A DNA stretch of 22,605 nt from a virus. Positions within the stretch are counted from its first letter, which is position 1. Each line of letters starts with the position of its first letter. The notes below the pieces were generated by a model, which searched no databases, was not told the DNA's origin, and saw nothing but the letters and a program-made list of their open reading frames with translations. The translations under genes were made by a program, and so were the position numbers. Where the stretch lies: positions 1 through 22,605 of the IMG/VR virus record IMGVR_UViG_3300035187_002118; one strand, written 5' to 3'. Shown here piece by piece: positions 2,663 to 22,329 of this stretch.

Positions 2663-4714
2663 GTGCCATTTCAACCCGCCTGTTGTTGTAGTGATTGCAC
2701 AAGTCGTGATTGTCTCAGTGGCGGCACGATCGACACGGGTTGCTGTCATTCGTGCGATCACCTGCTGCTTTGGTGCGAGCGCCCGGGATTCAGCGGCAAG
2801 CGCGAGGCACTCTGGAATCCACCCGGAAGCGAGACATGGTGTGAAATCTGTGAAACAAAGTCTTGGTCAGGCTTGCCGCCCGTGCAAGCGATCTACCAGT
2901 ATTACGGCACGTTCTGGCGCGTTCAGTACCCCGGTGGCCCACAGCCGCAACGCGGACTGAAGAACCTGCTGCCTCCGTATCCTGAGTGCCCGACTCGGGC
3001 GTGCTTTGGAGATGACCCCGACTGCACTTCATGCAACCCGAGCGGGCCTCTTGGTGGCAATACGAGCGGCTGCGAGTGCAATGGCTCGACCACTAACTCG
3101 GTGTATTCAAAGTACCAACTCGACCGATATCAGGCTGATCCAGAGACGCGGTGGGCGCCCGAGTTGATCTGTTGGAAGGGCGGCGACGATCTCAGCACGA
3201 TTAGTGGGATTGGCCGACTTGATCGACAGGTACTCGGAATCGTGTACTTCGAGCGATGGTGGCGCATCGCTCAAGGCACGTCGGATTGCAACGAGTACCG
3301 AATCGTCGTGCCCGACTGCACGAAAGACCCGGTGACCGGCGACTACTCGTGCTCAGGCGGGCCGGCGGTGCAAGGCGACGATCTCGTGCCGAAGTGGTGG
3401 ATTCACGCTTGCAGCGGCGTTCCGCTGTTCGACTTTGACATTACTGATGCCGTCGCGCGAAAGTTGATCTCAAGCGAGGACGCAGATCAGATTCGCTCGT
3501 TCGCCGCGCAGGGTCTTCAGCCAGATCAAACCATATTGGCACAAATGGCCATTGGCGGTTATTTCGACAGCAAGGACTGGCGCGCCGAGCAGCGGCAGGC
3601 GTACGTCGACTTACACGCGCGATTCCCCGGAGCCGGCTACGGCGCGTGCATTCAAAATGTTGAGGACATGGGTGAACTTGGGCCGTTCCGCAGGCGGCTC
3701 ACAGAATCGTTTGCGATCGCAGACATCTACAACGACCCCGAGCCGATTCTTCGCGCAAGCGACGCGACTGCTAGTGGAAGCACCCTCCAGGCCATGTGCT
3801 CCATCGACTACCCCGGAGGGTGGGGTTCAAACGATGAGGTAGACTACAACTATTGGGCCGAGCGTCAGTGGGTCTACTTCCGGGGTGTCCCCGGCGGTTG
3901 GATTTGGGCCGGATGGAGCGCACCAGCAAGCCAAGAGTGTATCGATCTCGGAATCACCGACGAAGAGCAAGCAATTTTGCAGGGTTGTGGACGATTTGAT
4001 CCCAACTGTATTGAGGCTATCCGTGGCTGGCCGTTGCCTCCGCCGACGTGTACCCCATGCGTCGCTGCGTGTAAATGCGACGAGATCACATACACTAACT
4101 GCTCGTGTGCGCCCAGTTGCCCTGAGTGCGATCCAATCCCCGAAGTTGGTTGTGGGGGATCGCAACAGTGTGATGGCAATGACACTGGTACTGGCAACGG
4201 AGCGTGCGAACAGTTCGGAGTCGAGCCATTCTGCGAGGGGTTGCGAATGGTGTACGCCTACTACAAGTGGGTTCCGATGTTCGCCGGCACGTGTGAGTCG
4301 TGCGATGAAGGCCCGACCGGAGGTGGCAAGGAAACGTGCGCTCGCTCTGTGCTTTCGTACTTGATACCCGCGCGCGTATCGAGTAACTCGTGGGATGACG
4401 TCGTGCCGTACACATGCCGGAAAGAGATTCCTCCGCTCGGTGTGCCGAATCTGTTCCCCGCGATCATTGAAGCGCACCAGGCTACAGAGAAGATTTGCAT
4501 TGGAATCGGACCTGACCCGATTGATCCTGGCCTTTACTCAGAGAGCGATATTTGCTGTGGTGGGTTCTGCCCTTCATTCAGCGGCGAGTTGGACTGTTGT
4601 GGTCGGGTAAGCAACGACTGCGAGGCGAGCACTGATTGCCCCCCACACTCTCTTCAAGGGCAACGAAACTGCATCGGACACGACATTGAGTGTCAGGTTC
4701 AAGGGGGTGAGTGA
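2663..4714 (+). CDS. Very cysteine-rich large protein, 683 aa, probable virion protein
   Basis: I chose GTG at 2663 because AGAGGAG lies five bases upstream; the frame stays open upstream to about 2537 but lacks an SD. By eye there are about 53 cysteines, concentrated in an N-terminal block (ACCCSDC, GCCHSC, WCEIC, CTSC, GCEC) and a C-terminal block (CTPCVAACKC, CSCAPSCPEC, CESC, DICCGGFC, LDCCGR). A central Cys-poor section (about residues 265-370) includes helical EDADQIRSFAAQGL. The paired CxxC spacing suggests metal clusters or disulfide-linked knots, as in extracellular adhesins. No catalytic motif is evident. It lies between tail-type genes and another Cys-rich protein, so a surface or tail role is inferred. 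Family unknown. Confidence 0.8.
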   Translation: MPFQPACCCSDCTSRDCLSGGTIDTGCCHSCDHLLLWCERPGFSGKREALWNPPGSETWCEICETKSWSGLPPVQAIYQYYGTFWRVQYPGGPQPQRGLKNLLPPYPECPTRACFGDDPDCTSCNPSGPLGGNTSGCECNGSTTNSVYSKYQLDRYQADPETRWAPELICWKGGDDLSTISGIGRLDRQVLGIVYFERWWRIAQGTSDCNEYRIVVPDCTKDPVTGDYSCSGGPAVQGDDLVPKWWIHACSGVPLFDFDITDAVARKLISSEDADQIRSFAAQGLQPDQTILAQMAIGGYFDSKDWRAEQRQAYVDLHARFPGAGYGACIQNVEDMGELGPFRRRLTESFAIADIYNDPEPILRASDATASGSTLQAMCSIDYPGGWGSNDEVDYNYWAERQWVYFRGVPGGWIWAGWSAPASQECIDLGITDEEQAILQGCGRFDPNCIEAIRGWPLPPPTCTPCVAACKCDEITYTNCSCAPSCPECDPIPEVGCGGSQQCDGNDTGTGNGACEQFGVEPFCEGLRMVYAYYKWVPMFAGTCESCDEGPTGGGKETCARSVLSYLIPARVSSNSWDDVVPYTCRKEIPPLGVPNLFPAIIEAHQATEKICIGIGPDPIDPGLYSESDICCGGFCPSFSGELDCCGRVSNDCEASTDCPPHSLQGQRNCIGHDIECQVQGGE

Positions 4715-5944: not shown

Positions 5945-6232
5945 ATGGCCCGTCGCAAGGCCATCCGCGCAACGATCCGCGGCGATGTGTGGCGCGTCGA
6001 GTTCGCGCATATCGGAGACTACGGGCACTGCGAGTTTGGCTCGTGCCGCCGCACGCGCCGCATCCGTCTGTCGCCGTCACAATCCGACGCGGAGCTCCTC
6101 GACACAGTGATCCACGAGATGATCCACGCTCAGGACTGGGATTTATCCGAGGAGGCGGTGACGCAGCGCGCGACGGAGATCGCGACGGTGTTGCAAAGAA
6201 TTTTTTTGATTGCTCGACGGAATACGCCTTGA
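5945..6232 (+). CDS. SprT-like HExxH metallopeptidase-fold protein, 95 aa
   Basis: The start ATG at 5945 lies one base after the phosphoesterase stop. The zinc-binding helix is LLDTVIHEMIHAQDWDLSEE, with His57, Glu58 and His61. Upstream are strands containing CEFGSC and RRTRRIRLSP, as in small phage members of the SprT/WSS1-like group. The protein is short, so only the minimal gluzincin-type helix and one flanking helix (EEAVTQRATEIATVLQRI) are present; the third metal ligand may be a Glu in SEE. The catalytic target is unknown. The final codons include a T-run (about 6201-6207) and overlap the -35 box of the downstream promoter. Confidence 0.8.
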   Translation: MARRKAIRATIRGDVWRVEFAHIGDYGHCEFGSCRRTRRIRLSPSQSDAELLDTVIHEMIHAQDWDLSEEAVTQRATEIATVLQRIFLIARRNTP

Positions 6233-6257
6233 CTTTGTTGGGATGCTTCACTAGATT
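6229..6257 (+). promoter_or_regulatory. Sigma70-type promoter for the recombination operon
   Basis: TTGACT (6229-6234), a 17-base spacer and TAGATT (6252-6257) match the bacterial -35/-10 consensus at 5/6 and 4/6 positions with ideal spacing. Transcription would begin near 6264 and give a leader of about 100 nt before the ATG at 6365. The -35 box lies over the last codons of the SprT-like gene. Confidence 0.75.
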
Positions 6258-6287
6258 GGCAACGCCACCCGGACACCAACAATGTTG

Positions 6288-6350
6288 TCCCCGACCGACT
6301 GCGCCCGCGTCCGCTGGGTGGCTCCACGTGTGAGGCGCGTCGGTCGGGGA
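6288..6350 (+). promoter_or_regulatory. Leader RNA hairpin (17 paired bases, 28-nt loop) with anti-RBS loop
   Basis: TCCCCGACCGAC (6288-6299) is the exact reverse complement of GTCGGTCGGGGA (6339-6350). Beyond a one-base bulge (T6300), GCGCC (6301-6305) pairs with GGCGC (6334-6338). The 28-nt loop contains CTGGGTGGCTCCA (6314-6326). Nine of these bases (6318-6326) are complementary to TGGAGCCAC at 6354-6362, the ribosome-binding site of the next gene. All 13 are complementary to TGGAGCCACCCAG at 8907-8919, across the helicase ribosome-binding site. There is no T-run after the stem, so it is not a standard terminator. A regulatory role is inferred. Confidence 0.6.
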
Positions 6351-6354
6351 CTTT

Positions 6355-6362
6355 GGAGCCAC
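6355..6362 (+). promoter_or_regulatory. GGAGCCAC ribosome-binding element, RecE-like gene
   Basis: GGAGCCAC ends two bases before ATG 6365, with the GGAG core six bases from the start codon. The same octamer precedes the starts at 8919, 10627 and (minus strand) 22276. It is complementary to the loop of the leader hairpin just upstream. Confidence 0.7.
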
Positions 6363-6364
6363 GA

Positions 6365-7177
6365 ATGGACATCAAAGTTGTCAGAGGACTTCCTGCGCAC
6401 GAGTATCACGCTATTCGAGCCGCTTCATCAACGCGCTTGAAGGAAATCATGCGCTCGCCGGCGCACCTTCGCCATATGGACGAGAATCCAAAGACGGGGG
6501 ATGCCCTCCTCATTGGCGATGCGTTTCATACGCTTGTGCTTGAGCCGAACGACTACACCAACCGATTTGTGGTGGGGCCTGATGTTGACCGGCGAACGAA
6601 AGACGGAAAGGCCGAGTGGGCTGCGTTTGTTGAATCTATCGGATCGCGCAAGGTGCTCACCTACGACCAGAACCTCTTGGTTACTGGCATGGCGAAGGCC
6701 GTGATGAGCAATTCAATGGCGCACGAACTCATTCTTGCGCGCGCAGAGACGGAGTTGACCCTGTTTTGGCGCGCCCTTGGTATCGCTTGCAAAGCGCGAA
6801 TTGATGGGTTCAATTTGAATCACCGCGCGGCATTTGATCTCAAGTCTTGTGAAAATGCTAATCGCGATGAGTTTGCCCGCAGTGTGGCGAATTTCAAATA
6901 CCACGTTCAAGCGGCCTGGTATCTCGATGCGATGAAGGCCGCTGACTTCCCCGCTGAGACGATCGTGTTCATCGCGGTTGAGAAGTCCTCGCCCTACGGA
7001 GTGGCGTTGTACGAACTCGATGAAGACGCGATTGAAGAGGGTCGGATTCAGATTGCGAAGCATCTTCCGATTCTCGCGAATTGCGAAGAAACAAATGATT
7101 GGCCTGGTTACGAGTCGGGCATTCAGTCGATTTCGCTTCCCAGGTGGTCCGTCAAGGGAGAGGGGGCTACACTTTGA
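6365..7177 (+). CDS. RecE/exonuclease VIII-like PD-(D/E)XK nuclease (DUF3799-type), 270 aa
   Basis: The protein matches the RecE C-terminal nuclease family along its length: SSTRLKEIMRSPAHLRHM near the N-terminus, GDAFHTLVLEPNDY, FVVGPDVDRRTKDGK, and the core CKARIDGF (catalytic Asp) followed by AFDLKSC (Asp-x-Lys). Conserved FKYHVQAAWYLDAM and FIAVEKSSPYGVALYEL follow, then WPGY and a closing LPRW. RecE-type enzymes resect double-stranded DNA 5' to 3' to expose a 3' strand for the annealing protein, here encoded next. ATG at 6365 is chosen for GGAGCCAC upstream. Length is typical for the stand-alone nuclease form. It is the first gene after the promoter and hairpin leader. G+C is near half, lower than the cassette region. 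Confidence 0.9.
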   Translation: MDIKVVRGLPAHEYHAIRAASSTRLKEIMRSPAHLRHMDENPKTGDALLIGDAFHTLVLEPNDYTNRFVVGPDVDRRTKDGKAEWAAFVESIGSRKVLTYDQNLLVTGMAKAVMSNSMAHELILARAETELTLFWRALGIACKARIDGFNLNHRAAFDLKSCENANRDEFARSVANFKYHVQAAWYLDAMKAADFPAETIVFIAVEKSSPYGVALYELDEDAIEEGRIQIAKHLPILANCEETNDWPGYESGIQSISLPRWSVKGEGATL

Positions 7178-8073
7178 GTAATCTTGCGACGATCAGTTTG
7201 GATTCAGAGAAGGTTGCGCTTCTGTCCCGCACAATCGCAAAGGGTTGTTCTCCAGACGAACTTGCGCTGTTTACAGCGATTTGCAAGCGAACGGGACTAG
7301 ATCCTTTCGCGAAGCAGATTCACGCGGTCAAGCGATGGGACTCAGAACTTGGCCGCGAAGTCATGCAGCCCCAGGTTTCGATCGACGGAGCGCGTCTTGT
7401 GGCACAGCGTTCGGGCGAGTATGCCGGCCAAGATGGTCCGTGGTGGTGTGGCGACGATGGGGTTTGGACTGATGTTTGGCTTCGTGCCCCGACGGCTCCT
7501 CCGCGCGCGGCCAAGGTGCTTGTGTATCGGAAGGGATTTGAGAAGCCGATTCAAGCCGTCGCATCTTTCAATGAATACGCGCAGCGAAAGAAGGATGGAA
7601 CTCTCATCAAGATGTGGGCAAAGATGCCCGCGTTGATGATTGCGAAGTGCGCGGAAGCTTTGGCGTTGCGTAAGGCATTCCCGGCAGAGTTGGGGGGTCT
7701 ATACGTTCCCGAAGAAATCAGCAGTGATGAGAATGTGCCGGCGGGCATCAAGAATGTCGTGCTTCGGACCGGAGAGCCTGAGCGCCACCAGCTTGAAACA
7801 GAAGTTGAAGAGGAAGCGCAAGACCCTCCAGCAAAGCTAGTCAAGTGCATCACCAAGGCAGATGCAGTCAGTATCACGAAGGCTCTTGAAGACAAAGAAA
7901 TTTCAAGGGCTGATTTGATTGTCGCCATGCACAAGGCAGGCTTGATGGCGACGGATGAAATGTCAACTTGGCCGAAGGAGTGGCTCCCGCGGATTCAGAG
8001 TTGGATCAAACAGCAGCGGATCCGAAGGGCTGAATCATCGCAAGAAGATGAAGCGATTGCTGATATCGTGTAA
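7174..8073 (+). CDS. bet: Bet/RecT-class single-strand annealing protein, 299 aa
   Basis: TTG at 7174 overlaps the nuclease TGA (TTGA), with an AAGGGAGAGGGGG stretch upstream as SD. The order of segments is that of the lambda Bet family: ELALFTAICKRTGLDPFAKQ, QIHAVKRW, QVSIDGARLVAQRSGEYAG, then basic strand KVLVYRKGFEKPIQA, FNEYAQ, and MPALMIAKCAEALALRKAFP with a following Gly-Leu-Tyr. These proteins form rings or filaments on ssDNA and anneal complementary strands; the pairing with a RecE-like nuclease is the usual two-gene arrangement. The C-terminal 90 residues (acidic EVEEEAQDPP, then helical) are less conserved and may bind host SSB or other partners. Confidence 0.92.
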   Translation: MSNLATISLDSEKVALLSRTIAKGCSPDELALFTAICKRTGLDPFAKQIHAVKRWDSELGREVMQPQVSIDGARLVAQRSGEYAGQDGPWWCGDDGVWTDVWLRAPTAPPRAAKVLVYRKGFEKPIQAVASFNEYAQRKKDGTLIKMWAKMPALMIAKCAEALALRKAFPAELGGLYVPEEISSDENVPAGIKNVVLRTGEPERHQLETEVEEEAQDPPAKLVKCITKADAVSITKALEDKEISRADLIVAMHKAGLMATDEMSTWPKEWLPRIQSWIKQQRIRRAESSQEDEAIADIV

Positions 8074-8085
8074 CTAAACCTTCTT

Positions 8086-8111
8086 CCCCGTCCCGGGGTG
8101 GGCGAAAGCTC
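8086..8111 (+). other. Tandem short hairpins between bet and the next gene
   Basis: CCCCG-TCC-CGGGG (8086-8098) is followed by GGGC-GAAA-GCTC (8100-8111), which would form a GNRA tetraloop hairpin in RNA. No T-run follows, so a classic intrinsic terminator is unlikely; mRNA stabilisation or a processing point is possible. The rest of the 128-base gap (8074-8201) shows no convincing promoter. The SD of the next gene is probably the GGGG at 8191-8194. Confidence 0.4.
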
Positions 8112-8201
8112 ATCTCGGGATTTCATGGAACATATTGGCAATTCAGTTGCTCTCATTGCCTTGATAGCGGTTTGTCTAGAAGGCTGGATAGGGGTTTTGC
8201 T

Positions 8202-8900
8202 ATGCAGGAACTCAAAGAATCGGAAGTAACCCGCCTAGCTCTTCTTGAAGAGACGATCGACAACGGAATGCGATCGTTTATGGAAGTGGGGATTGCACTC
8301 GCTGAAATACGAGAGAAGCGCCTATATCGGTTGGGATACGCCACGTTTGAGGAGTATTGCCAAAGACGATGGCAATTCACCGCATCTCGTGGTCGCCAAC
8401 TGATGTCTGCCGTAGCTGCGATCGCATCGCTCCCCGACGATGCTCCCAAGCCCACAAACGCAGCTCAGGCTAATGCACTTGCTTCTGTTGCGCCAGAAGA
8501 TCGTGCGTCTACATGGGAAACGGCTTGCCAAGAGGCGGACGAAGAGGGAAGGGCGGTAACAGCCAGAGATATTCAAGAAGCATCTCAACGTATCGTGAAT
8601 CCAAACGAAAGTCTTTCGCTTGGCTCAACGGGGATGCTTGAGGTAGATCCGCTGTTTCGGGCGGCTCTTGATGCGATCAAGAAAGCGAGCGATGCCGCCG
8701 ATGCCCTCACTCGATCATCGGCAAAGGCTTGGCTTCTAACCAGCGGATCTGCATTACTGAAGCATCTTCGCGATGCTCGTGACCATGTTCGCGGTGCAAA
8801 GCCCGCAGCAATTTGCCCAGAATGTGATGGCGAAGGATGCGCAAAGTGCCTGGGAGTCGGATGGGTCAACAAGACGCGATTGGATTCTTTGTCGAAGTGA
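8202..8900 (+). CDS. Phage protein with helical N-domain and DnaJ-like CxxCxGxG C-terminus, 232 aa
   Basis: ATG at 8202 follows GGATAGGGG with seven bases between; an upstream TTG at 8172 is an unsupported alternative. The N-terminal 90 residues contain a pattern seen in many phage and plasmid proteins: an LEETIDNGMRSFMEVGIALAEI helix, then EKRLYRLGYATFEEYCQ and RWQFTASRGRQLMSAVAA, which looks like a helix-turn-helix DNA-binding unit. The middle is helical and acidic. The C-terminus ends in CPECDGEGCAKCLGVGW, a zinc-binding half of a DnaJ-type repeat. Lying between bet and the helicase, it probably belongs to replication/recombination, but no activity is established. Confidence 0.8.
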   Translation: MQELKESEVTRLALLEETIDNGMRSFMEVGIALAEIREKRLYRLGYATFEEYCQRRWQFTASRGRQLMSAVAAIASLPDDAPKPTNAAQANALASVAPEDRASTWETACQEADEEGRAVTARDIQEASQRIVNPNESLSLGSTGMLEVDPLFRAALDAIKKASDAADALTRSSAKAWLLTSGSALLKHLRDARDHVRGAKPAAICPECDGEGCAKCLGVGWVNKTRLDSLSK

Positions 8901-8906
8901 ACATCT

Positions 8907-8919
8907 TGGAGCCACCCAG
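8907..8919 (+). promoter_or_regulatory. Helicase ribosome-binding site, complementary to leader loop
   Basis: TGGAGCCACCCAG includes the GGAGCCAC element (8908-8915) and reaches the first base of GTG 8919. It is the exact reverse complement of 6314-6326 in the leader hairpin loop of the same transcription unit. The match extends five bases beyond the octamer shared with other starts. Confidence 0.6.
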
Positions 8920-10583
8920 TGAAACTTCGACCATATCAAGAAGAGTGCGTCAGGGCAATTTGCGATCAGCTCCGTGAGAATCGCAGTACAGTTGCGGTGC
9001 TTGCCACGGGATTGGGAAAAACTGTCTGCTTCGCGGAGGTGATTCGACTCGGTCTTGCAAAGCCGGGTCGGCGCGCCATTGTTCTTGCGCATCGCGAAGA
9101 ACTCATTATGCAGGCCGCTGAAAAGGTCAAGTCTGTAATCGGTCTTGACCCGTCGATCGAAATGGGCGATCTCCGATCTGAAGAAGATGGAATCTATGGA
9201 AAGAATTCCGTTGTGGTATCGAGCATTCAGACTCAAGGTGCTGGTCGCGGAGAACGGAAGCGGATGCACCGCTTCGACAACTCAGTTCCGTGGATCGTGG
9301 TCGTGGATGAATGCCATCACGCCACGAGTAAGTCATACCGGACGGTCATTGACCACTACATGCGGCATCCGGATTCCCGGCTACTTGGGGTGACGGCGAC
9401 TCCCGACAGACTGGATAAGAAGGCTCTCGGCGTCGTCTTCGACACCGTGGCGTACCAGTTCGATGTCTCTGATGGCATTCGTGAGGGATGGCTTGTCCCG
9501 GTGCGACAGAGGTTCGTGCAGTGCGACAACTTAGATTTGAGCGGATGCGGGAAAGCGGGAGGCGATTTCGTCTTGTGCGATCTCGAGGAAGCTCTTGAGA
9601 GATCGTTGCAGCAGATGGTGCTCCCGATGGTTTCGATCGTTGGTTCGCGAAGGACTCTGATCTTCGCCGCAAGCGTCAAGCACGCGGAGCGCATCGCAGA
9701 GATTTTGAATCGCCCCGGAGTAGCAACAGGAGCCGCAGCAATCGTGCACGGCGGAACCCCGAAAGACATCCGTAGGCAGCTGTTCCGTGAATACAGCGAA
9801 GGCAAACTTCAATATCTCGTCAATGTCGCGGTTGCAACCGAGGGCTGGGATGATCCCGCGCTTGACGGGAAGGGCGTTCAAGTCGTTGCGATGATGCGCC
9901 CGACGCAGAGCCGTGCCCTCTACTGTCAAATGCTCGGCAGAGGCACGCGGACTTTGCCCGGAACAATTGATGGCATTGATGGATCTGAAGAGCGTCGGAT
10001 AGCCATTGCCTCGAGTGCCAAGCCCTGTGTGGAGGTATTGGATTTCCTCGGCAACAGTGGTCGCCACCAGCTCGTCCATGCCGGCGACGTTTTGGGCGGG
10101 GACATGAACGAGGGCACTGTGAAGCGCATGAAGAAGTCGAGCGAGAAGAAGGGGCTTGGAGAGGCGGTCGATGTCCTCGAGATGCTCGACCACGCAGAGA
10201 GAGAGCGAATAAAGGCAGAGGAAGCCAAGAGGAGGATTCACGTTGTCGGGCGCGCGAAATTCACGACGCAAGACATTGATCCGTTTGATCGGCTAGGAAT
10301 CGTTCCTCGAAGCGTCCCTTGGTGGCAAAGAAACATTCCAGCCACCGAGAAGCAAAGGGCGATGCTTGAGCGCAACGGCATCATCACAAAGGATCTTGAC
10401 ACAGGGAAGGCGTCTCAACTCATTGAAGCGTTGATGTCTCGCCCTTCTCCGAAGCAAGCTTGGGTTCTTCGGCAGGCGGGAATAGACCCCGCTGGATTCA
10501 GTCGGAAGAACGCAAGCGCAGCCATTGATCTGGTGAAGTCCGGGCGTGTTGACGAGGCCAAGAAATTGTCCGCGCTTGCTTGA
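8919..10583 (+). CDS. SF2 DEAD/DEAH-family helicase, 554 aa
   Basis: GTG start after GGAGCCAC. Superfamily 2 motifs appear in order: Q-like MKLRPYQEECVRAI, Walker A ATGLGKT (residues 29-35), AHREEL (Ia), DECH (130-133), TATPDR (III), then FAASVKHAERIAEIL (IV), VATEGWDDP (V) and QMLGRGTR (VI). The protein is of the RAD25/UvsW type that uses ATP to move on DNA, branch structures or stalled forks. In a phage with RecE-like and Bet proteins it may promote recombination-dependent replication. The C-terminal 120 residues contain two PATEKQRAML and PSPKQAWVLRQAGI repeats, a small module seen in other phage helicases, possibly for DNA or partner binding. It ends just before a strong promoter. Confidence 0.9.
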   Translation: MKLRPYQEECVRAICDQLRENRSTVAVLATGLGKTVCFAEVIRLGLAKPGRRAIVLAHREELIMQAAEKVKSVIGLDPSIEMGDLRSEEDGIYGKNSVVVSSIQTQGAGRGERKRMHRFDNSVPWIVVVDECHHATSKSYRTVIDHYMRHPDSRLLGVTATPDRLDKKALGVVFDTVAYQFDVSDGIREGWLVPVRQRFVQCDNLDLSGCGKAGGDFVLCDLEEALERSLQQMVLPMVSIVGSRRTLIFAASVKHAERIAEILNRPGVATGAAAIVHGGTPKDIRRQLFREYSEGKLQYLVNVAVATEGWDDPALDGKGVQVVAMMRPTQSRALYCQMLGRGTRTLPGTIDGIDGSEERRIAIASSAKPCVEVLDFLGNSGRHQLVHAGDVLGGDMNEGTVKRMKKSSEKKGLGEAVDVLEMLDHAERERIKAEEAKRRIHVVGRAKFTTQDIDPFDRLGIVPRSVPWWQRNIPATEKQRAMLERNGIITKDLDTGKASQLIEALMSRPSPKQAWVLRQAGIDPAGFSRKNASAAIDLVKSGRVDEAKKLSALA

Positions 10584-10617: not shown

Positions 10618-10625
10618 GGAGCCAC
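10618..10625 (+). promoter_or_regulatory. GGAGCCAC ribosome-binding element, small-gene array
   Basis: GGAGCCAC followed by C and ATG 10627; the GGAG core is five bases from the start. Nine bases (GGAGCCACC) match the reverse complement of the leader loop at 6317-6325. Confidence 0.7.
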
Positions 10626-10626
10626 C

Positions 10627-10947
10627 ATGACCGACATCGACACCATGATCAACCGCCTGTCCGACCGCCAGCGCCTCGAGTTTGCAGTGTGGTGCGCGGA
10701 GCGTGTCCGCCACCTGATGACCGACCCGCGTAGCACCGCCGCTCTTGATGTCGCGGCTCGGCATCTGCGCGGCGAGGCGACAGACCAGGAACTGAATGCG
10801 GCGTGGGCTGCGGCGGCTACGGCGTGGGATGCGGCGTGGGCTGCTGGGGCTGCGGCGGCGGCTGCGGCGTGGAATGCGGCGTGGGATGTCGAGCGCGCAG
10901 CGCAGCGCGCCGAACTTGAACGGATGATCGCGGAGGTGAAGCCATGA
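10627..10947 (+). CDS. Ala/Trp-repeat protein, 106 aa (family A, copy 1)
   Basis: The N-terminal 52-residue block (from DTMINRL to GEATDQEL) matches the block of the gene at 13976 at about 45 of 52 positions. It is followed by a low-complexity helix of AAW(D/N/A)AAW units about 35 residues long, encoded by GCGGCGTGGGATGCGG-type DNA repeats, and an AQRAELERM coiled-coil end. Trp spacing of four to seven residues would give an amphipathic helix. Similar Ala/Trp repeats occur in phage hypothetical proteins and some immunity-protein-like sequences; function is unknown. It is the first gene after the strong promoter, so probably among the earliest expressed. Confidence 0.85.
   Translation: MTDIDTMINRLSDRQRLEFAVWCAERVRHLMTDPRSTAALDVAARHLRGEATDQELNAAWAAAATAWDAAWAAGAAAAAAAWNAAWDVERAAQRAELERMIAEVKP
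10795..10890 (+). repeat. GCGGCGTGG-type tandem repeat (Ala/Trp codons), copy 1
   Basis: Imperfect units of GCGGCGTGGGATGCG and GCGTGGGCTGCGGCG encode the AAWDAAWAA helix. The same unit recurs at 14153-14320 and in a short form at about 11566-11598, in three different genes. It is prone to slippage, so length may vary between isolates. Confidence 0.7.
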
Positions 10948-13761: not shown

Positions 13762-13979
13762 TGTTCCTGTGCGGCATCGACGCGGATGGGCAACCATCAG
13801 CAATCAACATCACCGACTGTCGAACGATTAGCCTTGTCTCCTATGACGATGGCGACGTGATTGTTGTCGAGTTCAGCGACAGCGAGATAGCACAGTCGGT
13901 AGAGGCGGAAGACGCGACGATCTGCACACCGCAGCGCGTAGCGGCTGTGCTGATGAGCCTCAAGGAGCGGAACAAATGA
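13758..13979 (+). CDS. Hypothetical acidic beta-rich protein, 73 aa
   Basis: Two ATGs are adjacent (13758 and 13761); I list the first, which overlaps the previous TGA and follows GGAGGTGA. The protein starts FLCGIDADGQPSAINITDC, then a beta segment RTISLVSYDDGDVIVVEFSD and a helical end QRVAAVLMSLKERNK. It is small, acidic and unrelated to the coiled-coil cassettes. Function unknown. The end CTCAAGGAGCGGAACAA supplies the SD for ATG 13976. Confidence 0.75.
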   Translation: MMFLCGIDADGQPSAINITDCRTISLVSYDDGDVIVVEFSDSEIAQSVEAEDATICTPQRVAAVLMSLKERNK

Positions 13980-14374
13980 GCGACACAACGAACATCGACA
14001 CCATGATCAACCGCCTGACCGACCGCCAGCGCCGTCAGTTCGCGCTGTGGTGCGCGGAACGAGTCCGCCACCTGATGAGCGACCCGCGCAGCACGACCGC
14101 TCTTGATGTCGCGGCTCGGCATCTGCGCGGGGAGGCAACCGACGAGGAACTGGCTGCGGCGCGGGATGCGGCGGCTGCGGTGCGGGCTGCGGCGTGGGAT
14201 GCGGCGGCTGCGGCGTGGGCTGCGACGGCATCAGCGCCGGAGGTTGCGGCATGGAATGCGGCGTGGGATGCTGCGCGGGCTGCGCGGGCTGCGGCGTGGA
14301 ATGCGGCGTGGGATGCCGAGCGCGCCGCGCAGCGCGCCGAACTTGAACGGATGCTCGCGGAGGCGAAGCCGTGA
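13976..14374 (+). CDS. Ala/Trp-repeat protein, 132 aa (family A, copy 2)
   Basis: The N-terminal block from DTMINRLTDRQ to GEATDEEL is about 45 of 52 identical with the gene at 10627, and the C-terminal AQRAELERMLAEAKP is also shared. The repeat helix is longer (about 65 residues) and mixes Arg into the units (AAWDAARAARAAAWNAAW), so the repeat has expanded by slippage or exchange. It begins MSDTTN, like the family B opening. It closes the array that copy 1 opens, and its end overlaps the methyltransferase start (GTGA). Confidence 0.85.
   Translation: MSDTTNIDTMINRLTDRQRRQFALWCAERVRHLMSDPRSTTALDVAARHLRGEATDEELAAARDAAAAVRAAAWDAAAAAWAATASAPEVAAWNAAWDAARAARAAAWNAAWDAERAAQRAELERMLAEAKP
14153..14320 (+). 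repeat. GCGGCGTGG-type tandem repeat (Ala/Trp codons), copy 2
   Basis: Longer version of the repeat at 10795-10890, with units such as GCGGCGTGGGATGCGGCG, GCGTGGAATGCGGCGTGG and GCGCGGGCTGCGCGGGCTG. It encodes the Ala/Trp/Arg helix of family A copy 2. Confidence 0.7.
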
Positions 14375-16413
14375 GATACCTATCCGTCTGCTCTGGCATC
14401 GAAGCCGCCACCGTCGCGTGGCATCCGCTCGGTTGGACGCCCGTTGCGTTCAGCGAGATTGAGCCGTTCCCGTCCGCCGTCCTTGCGCACCACTACCCGC
14501 AAGTCCCTAATCTTGGAGACATGACGAACCATGCAACTTGGCCTCTTCAGCCCGGAGACATCGACCTCCTCGTCGGAGGAACCCCATGCCAGTCTTTCAG
14601 CGTCGCAGGACTCCGAAAGGGACTCTCAGACCCACGCGGAGGACTCATGCTTACCTACCTTGAGATCGCTCGTTGTCTTCGGCCTCGATGGGTTGTGTGG
14701 GAAAATGTCCCCGGTGTCCTGTCAAGCGACGGCGGACGGGATTTTGGTTCCTTCCTCGGGGCGTTGGGGGAACTGGGGTATGGGTGGGCTTACAGGGTGT
14801 TGGACGCTCAATGGGTGCGAACACAACGGCATCCCCGCGCCGTCCCGCAGCGCAGGAGACGTGTGTTCGTTGTCGGATGTCTTGGAGACGGAGCCGCTGC
14901 CGCCGCCGCCGCAGTACTCTTTGAGCGCGAAAGCGTGCAGCGGGATTCTTCGCCGCGCCGAGCGAAGGGGGAAGGCGCTGCCGCCGATGCTGCGGATGGC
15001 GCTGGCGCAGGGCGCATCACAAGCCACGATGTAGCGCCATGCATCGAAACCACGGTGCACGATTACAGCCGCGCAGATGGATTCACGATGGTCGCTGACA
15101 TCGTCGGCGCGGTTGACTGCCGCATATCCGCGCAGCGCGCGCAGAACGCCGCAGCCGGCCACCCGATCGCCGTTCCGATCCAAGACGGTCGCGACATCGC
15201 GAACAAGGTGCAGAACGGCATGGGCTTCGGAAAGGACGGCGATCCCGCGTACACGCTGACCAAGGTGGACGCAGCCGCCGTCGCCGTCACCGTCAGCAAC
15301 GGCGAGCCGCGCGTGTCCGACTGCATGGGCACGCTTGACGCGGCGCGCGAAAGCCGCGGATCGAACCAGCAGCGGTTCGTGATGCAGCCCGTCCCCTTCC
15401 GCAAATCGAAGCGCGCGCAGTCCACAACGGACGACGAGTCATGGGTTGAGGCGGAACAGGCGAACACCTTGAACGCCTTCGACACGGGGGAGCGGGACAC
15501 GCACGCGGTAGCGTTCAGCCCCGGCAACCTCAAGCGCGGCGCAGGAGCTGGGCCGAACGACGAGGTTTTTCCGACGCTGTTGTGCCGCGCGGGTCGCGGC
15601 GCGGATGACCAACGTCCGTGCGTCGCCTACCCCATCGACACGCAGAACATGACGGAGGGCCACTCGAGCGGCGGACTCGGCTTCGGTCAGGATGGCGACC
15701 AGTCGTTCACCGTGACCAAGGGGCACAGCCACGCGGTGGCGTTCGCGCAGAATCAACTCGGGGAACTCCGCGTGGGAGAGGTCACGAACACATTGAACAC
15801 AAACAGCAATGCCAGCGGCAGGAACACACCAATGGTGGCTCACGGCTTCTACAGCACGGGCGATGTCGCCGCGACGATGACCAAGGCGAGCGGTGGCCCA
15901 GCCGCATCGGAGCCGGCGGTGCTTTACAGTTTCCATCCAACGCAGGATCCGATCAACTCGGACGATGGTACAACGCATTGCATCGGAACTGGATCAAAGG
16001 GCGGATGCTCTACGGTTGGAGTCGCTCAGTCCATGACTGTTGCGCACGCGAATGGGGGCGGGCAGATTCCGTCGCCGCCGGCGGTCGCCTTCTCCTGCAA
16101 GGATCACGGCGCAGACGCGGGAACTGTCGCACCGACCATGCGCGCGATGCCGCACGACGGGTCGCACGCGAATGGGGGCGGGCAGATTGCGGTGGCGCAA
16201 ACCATGACCGTTCGCCGCCTCACCCCGCGCGAGTGCGAGCGGCTACAGGCGTTCCCCGACGACTACACGATGATCCCGTGGCGCAAGAAGCCCGCTGATC
16301 AGTGCCCGGACGGGCCGCGCTACAAGGCGCTCGGCAACAGCATGGCCGTGAACTGCATGGAGTGGATTGGGGAGCGGATCGCGGCCTATGAGGCCAAGGA
16401 GCGGAAGCCATGA
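14371..16413 (+). CDS. DNA cytosine-5 methyltransferase with very long variable region, 680 aa
   Basis: All core C5-MTase motifs are present: I (SVCSGIEAATVAW), IV with catalytic Cys73 (GGTPCQSFS), VI (ENVPG), VIII (QRRRRVFVVG), IX (RRLTPRECERLQAFPDDY) and X (ALGNSMAVNCMEW). The enzyme would methylate C5 of cytosine in a short recognition site. The region between VIII and IX, which holds the target-recognition domain, is about 430 residues. It contains degenerate repeats of the type GFGKDGDPAYTLTK, GFGQDGDQSFTVTK, NTLNTNS, ATMTKASG and SMTVAHANGGGQI. No restriction gene is nearby, so it is an orphan enzyme, probably protecting phage DNA. GTG start overlaps the previous stop. The 14531-15034 stretch also has a second open frame. 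Confidence 0.92.
   Translation: MRYLSVCSGIEAATVAWHPLGWTPVAFSEIEPFPSAVLAHHYPQVPNLGDMTNHATWPLQPGDIDLLVGGTPCQSFSVAGLRKGLSDPRGGLMLTYLEIARCLRPRWVVWENVPGVLSSDGGRDFGSFLGALGELGYGWAYRVLDAQWVRTQRHPRAVPQRRRRVFVVGCLGDGAAAAAAAVLFERESVQRDSSPRRAKGEGAAADAADGAGAGRITSHDVAPCIETTVHDYSRADGFTMVADIVGAVDCRISAQRAQNAAAGHPIAVPIQDGRDIANKVQNGMGFGKDGDPAYTLTKVDAAAVAVTVSNGEPRVSDCMGTLDAARESRGSNQQRFVMQPVPFRKSKRAQSTTDDESWVEAEQANTLNAFDTGERDTHAVAFSPGNLKRGAGAGPNDEVFPTLLCRAGRGADDQRPCVAYPIDTQNMTEGHSSGGLGFGQDGDQSFTVTKGHSHAVAFAQNQLGELRVGEVTNTLNTNSNASGRNTPMVAHGFYSTGDVAATMTKASGGPAASEPAVLYSFHPTQDPINSDDGTTHCIGTGSKGGCSTVGVAQSMTVAHANGGGQIPSPPAVAFSCKDHGADAGTVAPTMRAMPHDGSHANGGGQIAVAQTMTVRRLTPRECERLQAFPDDYTMIPWRKKPADQCPDGPRYKALGNSMAVNCMEWIGERIAAYEAKERKP
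14531..15034 (+). CDS. Overlapping second-frame ORF nested in the methyltransferase gene, 167 aa
   Basis: This +1 frame lies wholly inside the methyltransferase gene and stays open for 167 codons from ATG to TAG. It opens MQLGLFSPETSTSSSEEPHA and continues with GRWGNWGMGGLTGCWTLN, CSLSDVLET, QYSLSAKACSGILRRAERRG and KALPPMLRMAL. From memory, stand-alone phage hypothetical proteins share this order of motifs (SSGxW, GMGxPTxxxTLN, LSDxLETG, LSxxACxGILRRAEKRG), and those motifs are what the +1 frame of conserved MTase motifs VI-VIII encodes. In the first frame the matching stretch near 14890-15010 is Ala-rich and unlike normal MTases, while the second frame stays family-like. There is no close SD (GGAG is 13 bases upstream). 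Translation is inferred, not shown. Confidence 0.5.
   Translation: MQLGLFSPETSTSSSEEPHASLSASQDSERDSQTHAEDSCLPTLRSLVVFGLDGLCGKMSPVSCQATADGILVPSSGRWGNWGMGGLTGCWTLNGCEHNGIPAPSRSAGDVCSLSDVLETEPLPPPPQYSLSAKACSGILRRAERRGKALPPMLRMALAQGASQATM
16043..16188 (+). repeat. 26-bp direct repeat within the methyltransferase variable region
   Basis: The 26 bases at 16043-16068 recur exactly at 16163-16188, 120 bases apart. Both encode the HANGGGQI unit. The exact DNA identity suggests recent duplication or gene conversion inside the variable region. Confidence 0.8.
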
Positions 16414-19251: not shown

Positions 19252-19518
19252 ATGCCACGATTCACGACAGTATTGAGGGAGATCCTCGTTCGAGTTGCGC
19301 GAGATCCCGGCGCATCGCAGGCAGACATTGCAGAGGAACTGAAGCGGAATCGCTCCAGCGTCAACGCGGCAATGCGGCGACTGGTTGCGCTTGGATACCT
19401 TGCAAAAGGCGGATTCGGTGATTACAGGGTCACGGAATCGGGTCGAGAGCTTCTGAAGCCATCACCCGCCGCACGCATCTACCGATGCCCCGACTGCGGA
19501 CGGAAGTTCTCGGTCTGA
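19252..19518 (+). CDS. MarR/winged-helix-like regulator with C-terminal Cys pair, 88 aa
   Basis: I chose ATG 19252 (GGAG at 19242-19245, six bases upstream) over ATG 19240. The protein has a clear winged-helix pattern: VRVARDPGASQADIAEELKR, then NRSSVNAAMRRLVALGYLAKG and a wing FGDYRVTESGRELL. The end RIYRCPDCGRKFSV carries only one CxxC pair, the first half of a zinc ribbon, so the metal site would need a partner chain or be vestigial. It probably regulates phage transcription. The last 57 bases overlap the 3' end of the minus-strand recombinase (convergent). Confidence 0.8.
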   Translation: MPRFTTVLREILVRVARDPGASQADIAEELKRNRSSVNAAMRRLVALGYLAKGGFGDYRVTESGRELLKPSPAARIYRCPDCGRKFSV

Positions 19519-20220
19519 TTCAAGAATCCGTTTGATTGTCATATGACCGAGAGATCGGCAACCTCGGCCACGGATACCTGATTCCGAAATGCAGCTTGCG
19601 ATGGCGCGCCACCCTAGTCCCTGCGCTCGAAGTTCTCTCATCCTGCGGATCGCTTCCTGCTCTCCCGCGTCGGGACCAAGCTTATGGCGCTTGCGAACTT
19701 TGTCGCCGCGCATGTAAATCTCAGTTGAGACGACTCGGTATCCAAACGGAACCGCGCCGCCAGTTTTCTCGCTGCGGGTGCGCTTGACCTTGAGGGCGGA
19801 CTTGGTGCGTGCGCGGATCATGTCACGCTCGTACTGGGCGAATGCGTCGACGATGACCCGCATGACGCGACTCATAGGATCATCGGAATCAGTACCCTCG
19901 CCGGCGACGGAGACAAGCCTGGCACGCGCGCGCGCGACGGCGAGATCGACCCAGCCCGCGAGCATGTAGTCGCGGGCGATACGGTCACGCTTAGCGACAA
20001 TAAACACGTCACCTTCGCGGAGTGTCTCAAGAGCCTCTGTGAGTCCGGGGCGCTCCGCGACAGGCGTCGACCCGCCGAATCCCTCGTCAGCGAATACGGA
20101 GATATCCTGCGCCCCCAAGTCGCGAGCCTTGGCCTCGCAGGTTGCGCGCTGTGACTCAAGACCCAAGCCGCTCTCGGCTTGTTCGTCGGTAGACACACGT
20201 AGATAGATGACCGCTTTCAA
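19462..20220 (-). CDS. Serine recombinase (resolvase/invertase family), 252 aa
   Basis: TTG start at 20220 overlaps the upstream TGA; GAGGAAC is the SD. The N-terminal catalytic domain is intact: MKAVIYLRVSTDEQ with Ser10 and Arg8, LESQRATCEAKARD, FADEGFGGS, REGDVFIVAKRDRIARDYML and DAFAQYERDMIRARTKSAL. A recombinase-type domain begins VPFGYRVV and continues with EQEAIRRMRELRAQGLGWRAIASCI. At 252 residues it is far shorter than large serine integrases (about 450-600) but larger than typical resolvases. It is the last gene of the minus operon and probably integrates/excises the phage or inverts a segment. The att site is not identified. Confidence 0.9.
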   Translation of the reverse strand: MKAVIYLRVSTDEQAESGLGLESQRATCEAKARDLGAQDISVFADEGFGGSTPVAERPGLTEALETLREGDVFIVAKRDRIARDYMLAGWVDLAVARARARLVSVAGEGTDSDDPMSRVMRVIVDAFAQYERDMIRARTKSALKVKRTRSEKTGGAVPFGYRVVSTEIYMRGDKVRKRHKLGPDAGEQEAIRRMRELRAQGLGWRAIASCISESGIRGRGCRSLGHMTIKRILESDRELPSAVGASVDACGG

Positions 20221-21545: not shown

Positions 21546-22276
21546 TGTGCACCCCCGTCCCGATGGCATTCCTCGCACCAGATGACGACGCCGCCGCCGC
21601 AGTCGCCGGCGGGAATGGCCTGCGGACGGACCCCGCAGCACTCGCACGGGGCGGGCTCGGCGGCAAGGGCCGCGCGGCGCGCCGCGATGCGGTTGATCTC
21701 GCGCACGGCGTCGAGGCGCTGGCCTTCGGCGCGCGCCGACGCTTGGCGCCATGACGACCAGTCGCCGTGCTCGGGCGTGCCTGGCACGGTCGCGGCGTGC
21801 TCGAGGATGCCGCGCCGATTCTCGGTCAGCCGCGACTGCCGGCGAATGCGTTCAGCGATCCGTCGCGCCGAGTCAGAGTCGATCGCGCTTTGCGCGACCC
21901 AGATGCGCCAGAGGCTTTCGGTGGCGGCAAGGCGCAGCGCCTCGGGGCCGCTGCCAGCTCCGATCACGTCAAGGCCGACGACGACGACGACGTGCTCGCC
22001 ATTGTGGCGGATCGTCGCTTCGATCGCGCCGTCGCCCGCGACACGGACGCCGGCTCGGATGCGGCGATCCTGCGGGGCGCAGTAGCCATCCGCCGCGGCT
22101 TCGCGCGCCATCGTGATAAGACGGCGCTCGATGCGCCGGCGGACGATCGGAGACGTGATCGCAGAGAATCGGATGACGGCGATCTCAGGCGGCATGTGGC
22201 CGCAGTCGGAGGACGCGATGCGGTCCATGATGTGCTGGCGGGTTTCGGTCAGGTCCAAGTCAAGCAATGCAAACAT
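21542..22276 (-). CDS. Hypothetical protein with C-terminal zinc-finger-like motif, 244 aa
   Basis: ATG 22276 is chosen because GGAGCCAC lies just upstream; the frame stays open upstream to about 22411 but without SD. The protein is helical at the N-terminus (LLDLDLTETRQHIMDRIASS), then contains a long Arg-rich section (VRRRIERRLITMAREAA), beta part HNGEHVVVVVGLDVIGAG, and helical RRIAERIRRQSRL. The C-terminus carries CECCG and CGGGVVIWCEEC (two Cys pairs), a probable zinc ribbon. It is the first gene of the minus operon. Function is unknown, perhaps DNA binding. Confidence 0.75.
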   Translation of the reverse strand: MFALLDLDLTETRQHIMDRIASSDCGHMPPEIAVIRFSAITSPIVRRRIERRLITMAREAAADGYCAPQDRRIRAGVRVAGDGAIEATIRHNGEHVVVVVGLDVIGAGSGPEALRLAATESLWRIWVAQSAIDSDSARRIAERIRRQSRLTENRRGILEHAATVPGTPEHGDWSSWRQASARAEGQRLDAVREINRIAARRAALAAEPAPCECCGVRPQAIPAGDCGGGVVIWCEECHRDGGAQ

Positions 22277-22278
22277 GG

Positions 22279-22286
22279 GTGGCTCC
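22279..22286 (-). promoter_or_regulatory. GGAGCCAC ribosome-binding element, minus operon
   Basis: Minus-strand GGAGCCAC followed by CC and ATG 22276. Together with the starts at 6365, 8919 and 10627 this makes four copies. The 11 bases GGAGCCACCCA match the reverse complement of the leader loop at 6315-6325. Confidence 0.7.
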
Positions 22287-22329
22287 GTTTCTGCGGCTTC
22301 GCGCCGCGATAGTGGGAATGTACACTCTA

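Follow-up and report, generated by a model that had tools for sequence, protein, structure and literature searches.

Analysis of a 22,605-base IMG/VR phage record (the window; its phage is abbreviated W in comparisons between phages) indicates that the exonuclease gene exo is preceded by a structured leader whose hairpin loop is antisense to the ribosome-binding site (RBS) of a helicase gene further downstream. This leader is very probably a new conserved structured phage RNA. We favour, with a probability of about 0.6, a function in which the leader RNA, being antisense to an RBS word shared by several genes, represses or times translation of the helicase and of the other genes that carry the word. 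Judged from sequence, antisense control of such an RBS-defined gene set is the best reading of its function, if an unproven one. The RBS word and its exact antisense in the loop of a covarying RNA occur together in all eight phages in which the leader is visible, and the idea that phages could govern translation of a gene set with one RNA is concrete and easily tested. The elements of the leader and its predicted targets in the window are as follows.

6229-6257, plus strand: sigma70-like promoter, TTGACT-17-TAGATT; every relative has an equivalent in this position
6264-6272, plus strand: A1 element, GCCACCCGG, the predicted 5' end of the RNA, predicted to pair with the loop at 6314-6322; its GCCACC is invariant in 8/8 leaders
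6271-6277, plus strand: linker GGACACC; in the leader alignments it corresponds to a conserved GAACACCC-like motif 5' of the stem
6287-6299, plus strand: stem S, 5' strand, GTCCCCGACCGAC; ten of ten compared pairs vary on both sides among the eight phages
6300-6338, plus strand: apical region; inside it TGCGCC / GGCGC pair more weakly in the predicted fold
6314-6326, plus strand: loop antisense CTGGGTGGCTCCA, 13 nt, to the helicase RBS; its core B is GGTGGCTCC at 6317-6325
6339-6351, plus strand: stem S, 3' strand, GTCGGTCGGGGAC, from fold and covariation
6352-6354, plus strand: TTT immediately 3' of the stem, too short for a standard terminator
6354-6362, plus strand: exo RBS, TGGAGCCAC, complementary to the loop over 9 nt in the window
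8907-8919, plus strand: helicase RBS, TGGAGCCACCCAG, the main predicted target, with the G of the helicase GTG as its last base; the word is kept in 10/10 phages
10618-10626, plus strand: array-gene RBS word, GGAGCCACC, a predicted target with a 9-nt loop match
22276-22286, minus strand: RBS word and first start-codon base, GGAGCCACCC, of the first minus-strand operon gene, a predicted target; the word is also present in the G001 orthologue

An earlier reading of the window, made from the sequence alone (the sequence-only reading), had proposed that a hairpin at 6288-6350 carries this 13-nt antisense in its loop. The match between 6314-6326 and 8907-8919 is exact in sequence and coordinates, and the shorter pairings it listed are also correct: 9 nt with the RBS of the leader's own downstream gene, 9 nt with the array RBS and 11 nt with the minus-strand RBS (GGAGCCACCCA at 22286-22276). 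The hairpin is present as well, with a perfect stem slightly longer than described; it comprises 13 bp (6287-6299 / 6339-6351) and extends inward through TGCGCC / GGCGC with a one-base bulge. The predicted fold of the leader has a z of -2.7. To gauge chance, the loop was shuffled 20,000 times with its dinucleotides preserved, and each version was compared with the 42 listed gene starts of the window. The longest match of any shuffled loop was 12 nt, and 9-nt matches arose in 3.6% of them. Because none of the 20,000 shuffles attained 13 nt, the loop:RBS match is beyond chance; a lone 9-nt match would fall within it.

Relatives were found by a helicase search, the close ones sharing 67-81% identity. 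Seven of them are syntenic and carry the leader 5' of exo (L012, L013, L014, L015, L018, L019 and L211, the last derived from a metagenome-assembled genome, MAG), so that leader comparisons cover eight phages including the window. All share the same order of elements: promoter (mostly TTGACA in the relatives, with a spacing of 16-17 nt), GCCACC at the expected transcript start, linker, G+C-rich stem, GGTGGCTCC loop and exo. GGTGGCTCC is the sole fully invariant block in the eight-leader alignment. The stem, by contrast, differs in sequence in every phage and yet retains its pairing. Since stems were selected as complementary, 100% pairing arises by construction; the informative point, given that selection, is that eight differing sequences all pair. 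The GAACACCC-like motif is kept in most leaders although it is unpaired in our model, and it has diverged in L012. The L012 leader (about 3398-3495) also has an ATG soon after GCCACC and an open frame that spans the hairpin and whose stop codon overlaps the exo ATG; this frame is not conserved in the other leaders. Pattern scans of viral contigs (GCCACC..ACACC..GGTGGCTCC and promoter..GCCACC..GGTGGCTCC) returned convincing hairpins in the known members only, and the sampled distant exo homologues had no comparable hairpin.

The length of 13 nt is specific to the window phage. Elsewhere the loop matches the helicase RBS over 9-11 nt, and in one phage over 7 nt plus a G-U. The loop is antisense to the helicase RBS in 7/8 phages under an 8-nt rule and in 8/8 if one G-U is allowed. 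The sole departure within the 8-nt core of loop and RBS is a C-to-U change in one helicase RBS, which retains a G-U pair. Among distant helicase relatives no loop antisense to the helicase RBS was found, a weak negative as some of their starts were guessed.

The RBS word itself, GGAGCCAC, is strongly enriched in these phages. The window contains 9 occurrences against 0.62 expected. Across the ten phages of the group it is the commonest GGAG-type continuation before starts (32/354 sites) and the top of all four-base continuations; the ten phages are related, so the sites are not independent events, and the 32 include at least 2 false cases, spurious or antisense: the site at W 17984 and, in G001, the leader's own loop. 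The corresponding counts in controls were 2/167 among helicase relatives without the leader and 3/611 among other helicase phages. The word precedes the helicase in 10/10 phages, including G002, in which the eighth base is changed from C to T. Additional word-bearing genes are the one after the helicase (W, G001, G003, L211), one between exo and recT (G005) and genes of the minus-strand operon (W, G001, G002, G003, G007). Those of these additional genes that were searched gave no match to a known function. Two MAG assemblies contain contigs of member phages; GGAGCCAC occurs before ATG 11 times in one of them, against 15 for the reversed control, and 3 times in the other, against 0, and several of these occurrences sit on the phage contigs themselves. 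Because it is rare before ATG in both assemblies, the word does not resemble a standard RBS of the host, with the limit that these MAGs may not be the hosts. A scan for GGAGCCAY plus a helicase start recovered helicases that carry GGAGCCATGC but are unrelated and lack the leader.

Repeated RBS words have been known since 2011, without an assigned function, as Start Associated Sequences (SAS). These are conserved words, longer than the Shine-Dalgarno, that stand at the RBS of some of the genes in cluster K mycobacteriophages and cluster EF Microbacterium phages (PMC3203893, PMC7302621). GGAGCCAC resembles them as a conserved word that extends beyond the Shine-Dalgarno core at several genes per phage. 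It differs from the published consensus, GGGATAGGAGCCC, with which it has (A)GGAGCC alone in common (sites read by eye). In Anaya (JF704106; L363), a strong intergenic hairpin has the single antisense copy of the SAS, at 59870-59882, as its apical loop, CCTCCTATCC, as also seen in L366, L367, L369 and L372; the outer stem varies with its pairing largely kept. This loop, antisense to the SAS core, is present in Anaya and, among the relatives sampled, in Angelica, Urkel, Peanam and Enkosi. In Unicorn, Amohnition and Shandong1 the loop is changed and the SAS unchanged, and Pixie is without the loop. Because these cluster K phages keep the same SAS with altered loops or none, we do not claim an extension of the antisense-loop idea to the mycobacteriophage SAS.

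The sequence-only reading, made without relatives, had overlooked a second partner of the same loop, the GCCACC element at the predicted 5' end. In the window GCCACCC at 6264-6270 is complementary to the loop, and in all eight leaders GCCACC of A1 pairs with GGTGGC of the loop as an invariant six-pair core. Three extension pairs follow this core, each of which varies on both sides across the phages. An exact permutation of A1:loop partners gave p = 0.0007 (Watson-Crick pairs, 3 columns), and other column numbers or G-U rules gave p = 0.003-0.09. Even within the closest pair, L015 and L019, ACA/UGU in the extension is replaced by AAG/CUU. Thus, by comparative sequence evidence, both the leader RNA and its A1 pseudoknot are well supported. 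The loop core ends in an invariant CC, which A1 fully matches in no phage. Since A1 does not account for these bases, and both are complementary to the GG in the RBS word, their invariance fits RBS pairing. Four phages (L013, L014, L018, L211) have a second possible pairing, for example GAACGCA/TGCGTTC in L014. This pairing is less supported than the first (129/40,320 permutations with Watson-Crick pairs, 1,297/40,320 with G-U). The second complementary set crosses the first, and joint formation would be difficult; because both are hard to form together, the second may be the mark of an alternative state.

These features suggest the following mechanism. A structured leader RNA would span about 6258-6354, with its transcript start, as judged from promoter spacing, at or just before GCCACC. 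A long G+C-rich hairpin would display GGUGGCUCC, on which the 5' end, A1, would fold back at GGUGGC into an H-type pseudoknot. In this fold the loop's UCC end would stay mostly free and could contact the GGA of a Shine-Dalgarno, after which the RBS word, GGAGCCAC(C), may displace A1 to form a longer duplex. Displacement by way of the free UCC end is proposed because A1 leaves the CC unexplained and because the predicted RBS:loop duplex is stabler than the A1:loop duplex in all eight phages. The leader could act either as part of an operon mRNA that also contains the helicase RBS or as an RNA of ~90-110 nt ended at the hairpin. In either form, loop pairing would mask the RBS of the helicase and of genes with the same word, and their translation would be delayed or balanced. 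We infer the transcript, the three-dimensional pseudoknot, the pairing in cells, repression as its outcome and action in cis or in trans. It is possible, and we offer this more tentatively, that the leader represents a new class of phage RNA, a strand-displacement switch in which the 5' end mimics the target and locks the antisense loop, the loop reads the repeated RBS word, and the RNA sets translation of an RBS-defined group whose own mRNAs open it. The sequence-only reading had envisaged a riboregulator that silences several starts. A conserved leader with a loop antisense to several RBSs is indeed found (eight phages, an invariant 9-mer, a covarying stem, an enriched word); the silencing is what we infer.

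Several results weigh against antisense control of a gene set. A whole-loop duplex scan over all starts failed to put the helicase first in most phages; it used G+C-rich flanks and unverified starts, and because the loop flanks are G+C-rich this ranking is uninformative. The relatives had been suggested as a check for covariation between loop and RBS. The 8-nt core does not vary independently, and covariation of the flanks is marginal (1,938/40,320 permutations, p about 0.05). Moreover, the loop core and the RBS core are both invariant, and covariation therefore cannot prove their pairing. A1 is a competing partner of the loop and would be sufficient alone to account for GGUGGC. A terminator scan recognised no standard terminator at the leader stem. 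The set of word-bearing genes differs among phages, the helicase being its sole constant, and the comparison comprises just eight sequences from one phage group.

The competing role of A1 leads to the alternative that the leader acts only in cis, its pseudoknot or hairpin controlling read-through, mRNA stability or exo translation, perhaps with a protein ligand, and its loop being kept for A1 with the match to the RBS word as a by-product. The leader indeed always lies directly 5' of exo, whose start codon is at most a few tens of bases on, in 7/8 phages TTT lies no more than 2 bases from the end of the stem, and the A1:loop pairing is conserved and covarying. We nevertheless regard action in cis alone as doubtful, as it leaves unexplained the invariant CC at the loop end as well as the status of GGAGCCAC as the commonest start word and its constant place before the helicase. 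Pairing of the loop with the exo RBS offers little help here, being found in just 3/8 phages. A cis pseudoknot with this RBS was rejected as a conserved function because complementarity is confined to W, L012 and, in part, L019, in agreement with the sequence-only reading, which had judged the RBS an unlikely partner in cis.

An unlikely alternative of a different kind is that a protein or host factor reads the RBS word and that A1 or the loop imitates or titrates its site. Whether RNA or protein reads the SAS was left open when these were described (PMC3203893), and cluster K phages keep the SAS even where the sole candidate antisense loop is altered or missing. However, no candidate protein was found, the hairpin loop of the leader contains the antisense of the word and only GCCACC is present in sense, and exact antisense in all eight phages would not be expected. 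We consider it highly improbable that GCCACC...GGTGGC and the hairpin arms, inverted repeats immediately 3' of the promoter, form a DNA operator for a repressor, and rejected it since the repeat spacing varies from 37 to 66 nt and partner-specific extensions covary; further, the stem differs in every phage and the word stands in sense orientation 0-4 nt 5' of start codons. Chance similarity boosted by a favoured RBS sequence could produce a 9-nt match at the frequency seen in shuffled loops, but the length of the helicase match and the invariance across eight phages already strongly disfavour it, and we give it hardly any credence.

The short RNA c4 of phages P1 and P7 comes from the leader region of the operon that it affects. 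By analogy, the logic of the present leader appears closest to that of c4 and of the CI RNA of the satellite phage P4. c4 (Rfam RF01695) blocks the RBS region of its target phage gene through complementary segments that probably lie in loops (PMC12197685). The present leader likewise has a loop complementary to the RBS of a phage mRNA, that of the helicase, but the target of c4, an RNA with a role in immunity, is an antirepressor whereas here it would be the helicase and genes sharing one RBS word, and the present leader has a pseudoknotted 5' end. At the gathering score no Rfam family, c4 included, was found in the window and six relatives; lenient searches of the leaders, with E up to 5 for the window and up to 1 for the six relatives, gave no c4 and only weak, implausible matches. 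The P4 CI RNA (seqA/seqB/seqC) derives from an operon leader, acts as an antisense RNA and has complementary sequences on both its upstream and its downstream side (PMC4825925), and the order A1, loop, RBS in the present leader matches it. The upstream partner, A1, is present in 8/8 leaders, compared with 3/8 for the downstream partner, the exo RBS; the conserved partner here is the helicase RBS rather than a site in the downstream part of the leader. In addition, CI is a processed RNA that works by terminating transcription prematurely. The IsrK RNA of the Gifsy-1 prophage is a leader RNA with a short and a long form that uses alternative pairing to act on a phage operon both in cis and in trans (PMC4825925), but IsrK activates translation, and its sequence, genes and structure are unrelated as far as seen. 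If antisense control is true, a pseudoknotted, multi-target form would join the short list of phage antisense RNAs (c4, CI).

The genes that follow the leader in the window make up a recombination operon in the order exo, recT, a CxxC-motif conserved protein and helicase.

6365-7177, plus strand: exo, a PD-(D/E)XK exonuclease, DUF3799 / exonuclease VIII-like, directly 3' of the leader
7174-8073, plus strand: recT, single-strand annealing protein
8202-8900, plus strand: conserved protein of the operon, its role unassigned; the C-terminal part has a CxxC...CxxC motif
8919-10583, plus strand: DEAD/ResIII-type helicase, GTG start

A serine recombinase encoded at 19462-20220 on the minus strand suggests that the phage is temperate. 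Two paralogous genes with alanine/tryptophan-rich repeats (10627-10947 and 13976-14374) flank an array of short genes, and only the first has the GGAGCCACC RBS word. At 14371-16413 the window encodes a C5-cytosine methyltransferase of 680 aa in which a long middle stretch splits the conserved parts; its matches in related phages lie mainly at both ends. A small hairpin of the GCGGC-GCGAA-GCCGC type stands at 22293-22307 on the minus strand, just 5' of the GGAGCCAC word that serves the first minus-strand gene as RBS, and has equivalents in G001, G002 and G007. Other minus-strand genes have GGGCGACCGTCGCCC and a ATACGGACCGTAT-like palindrome in front.

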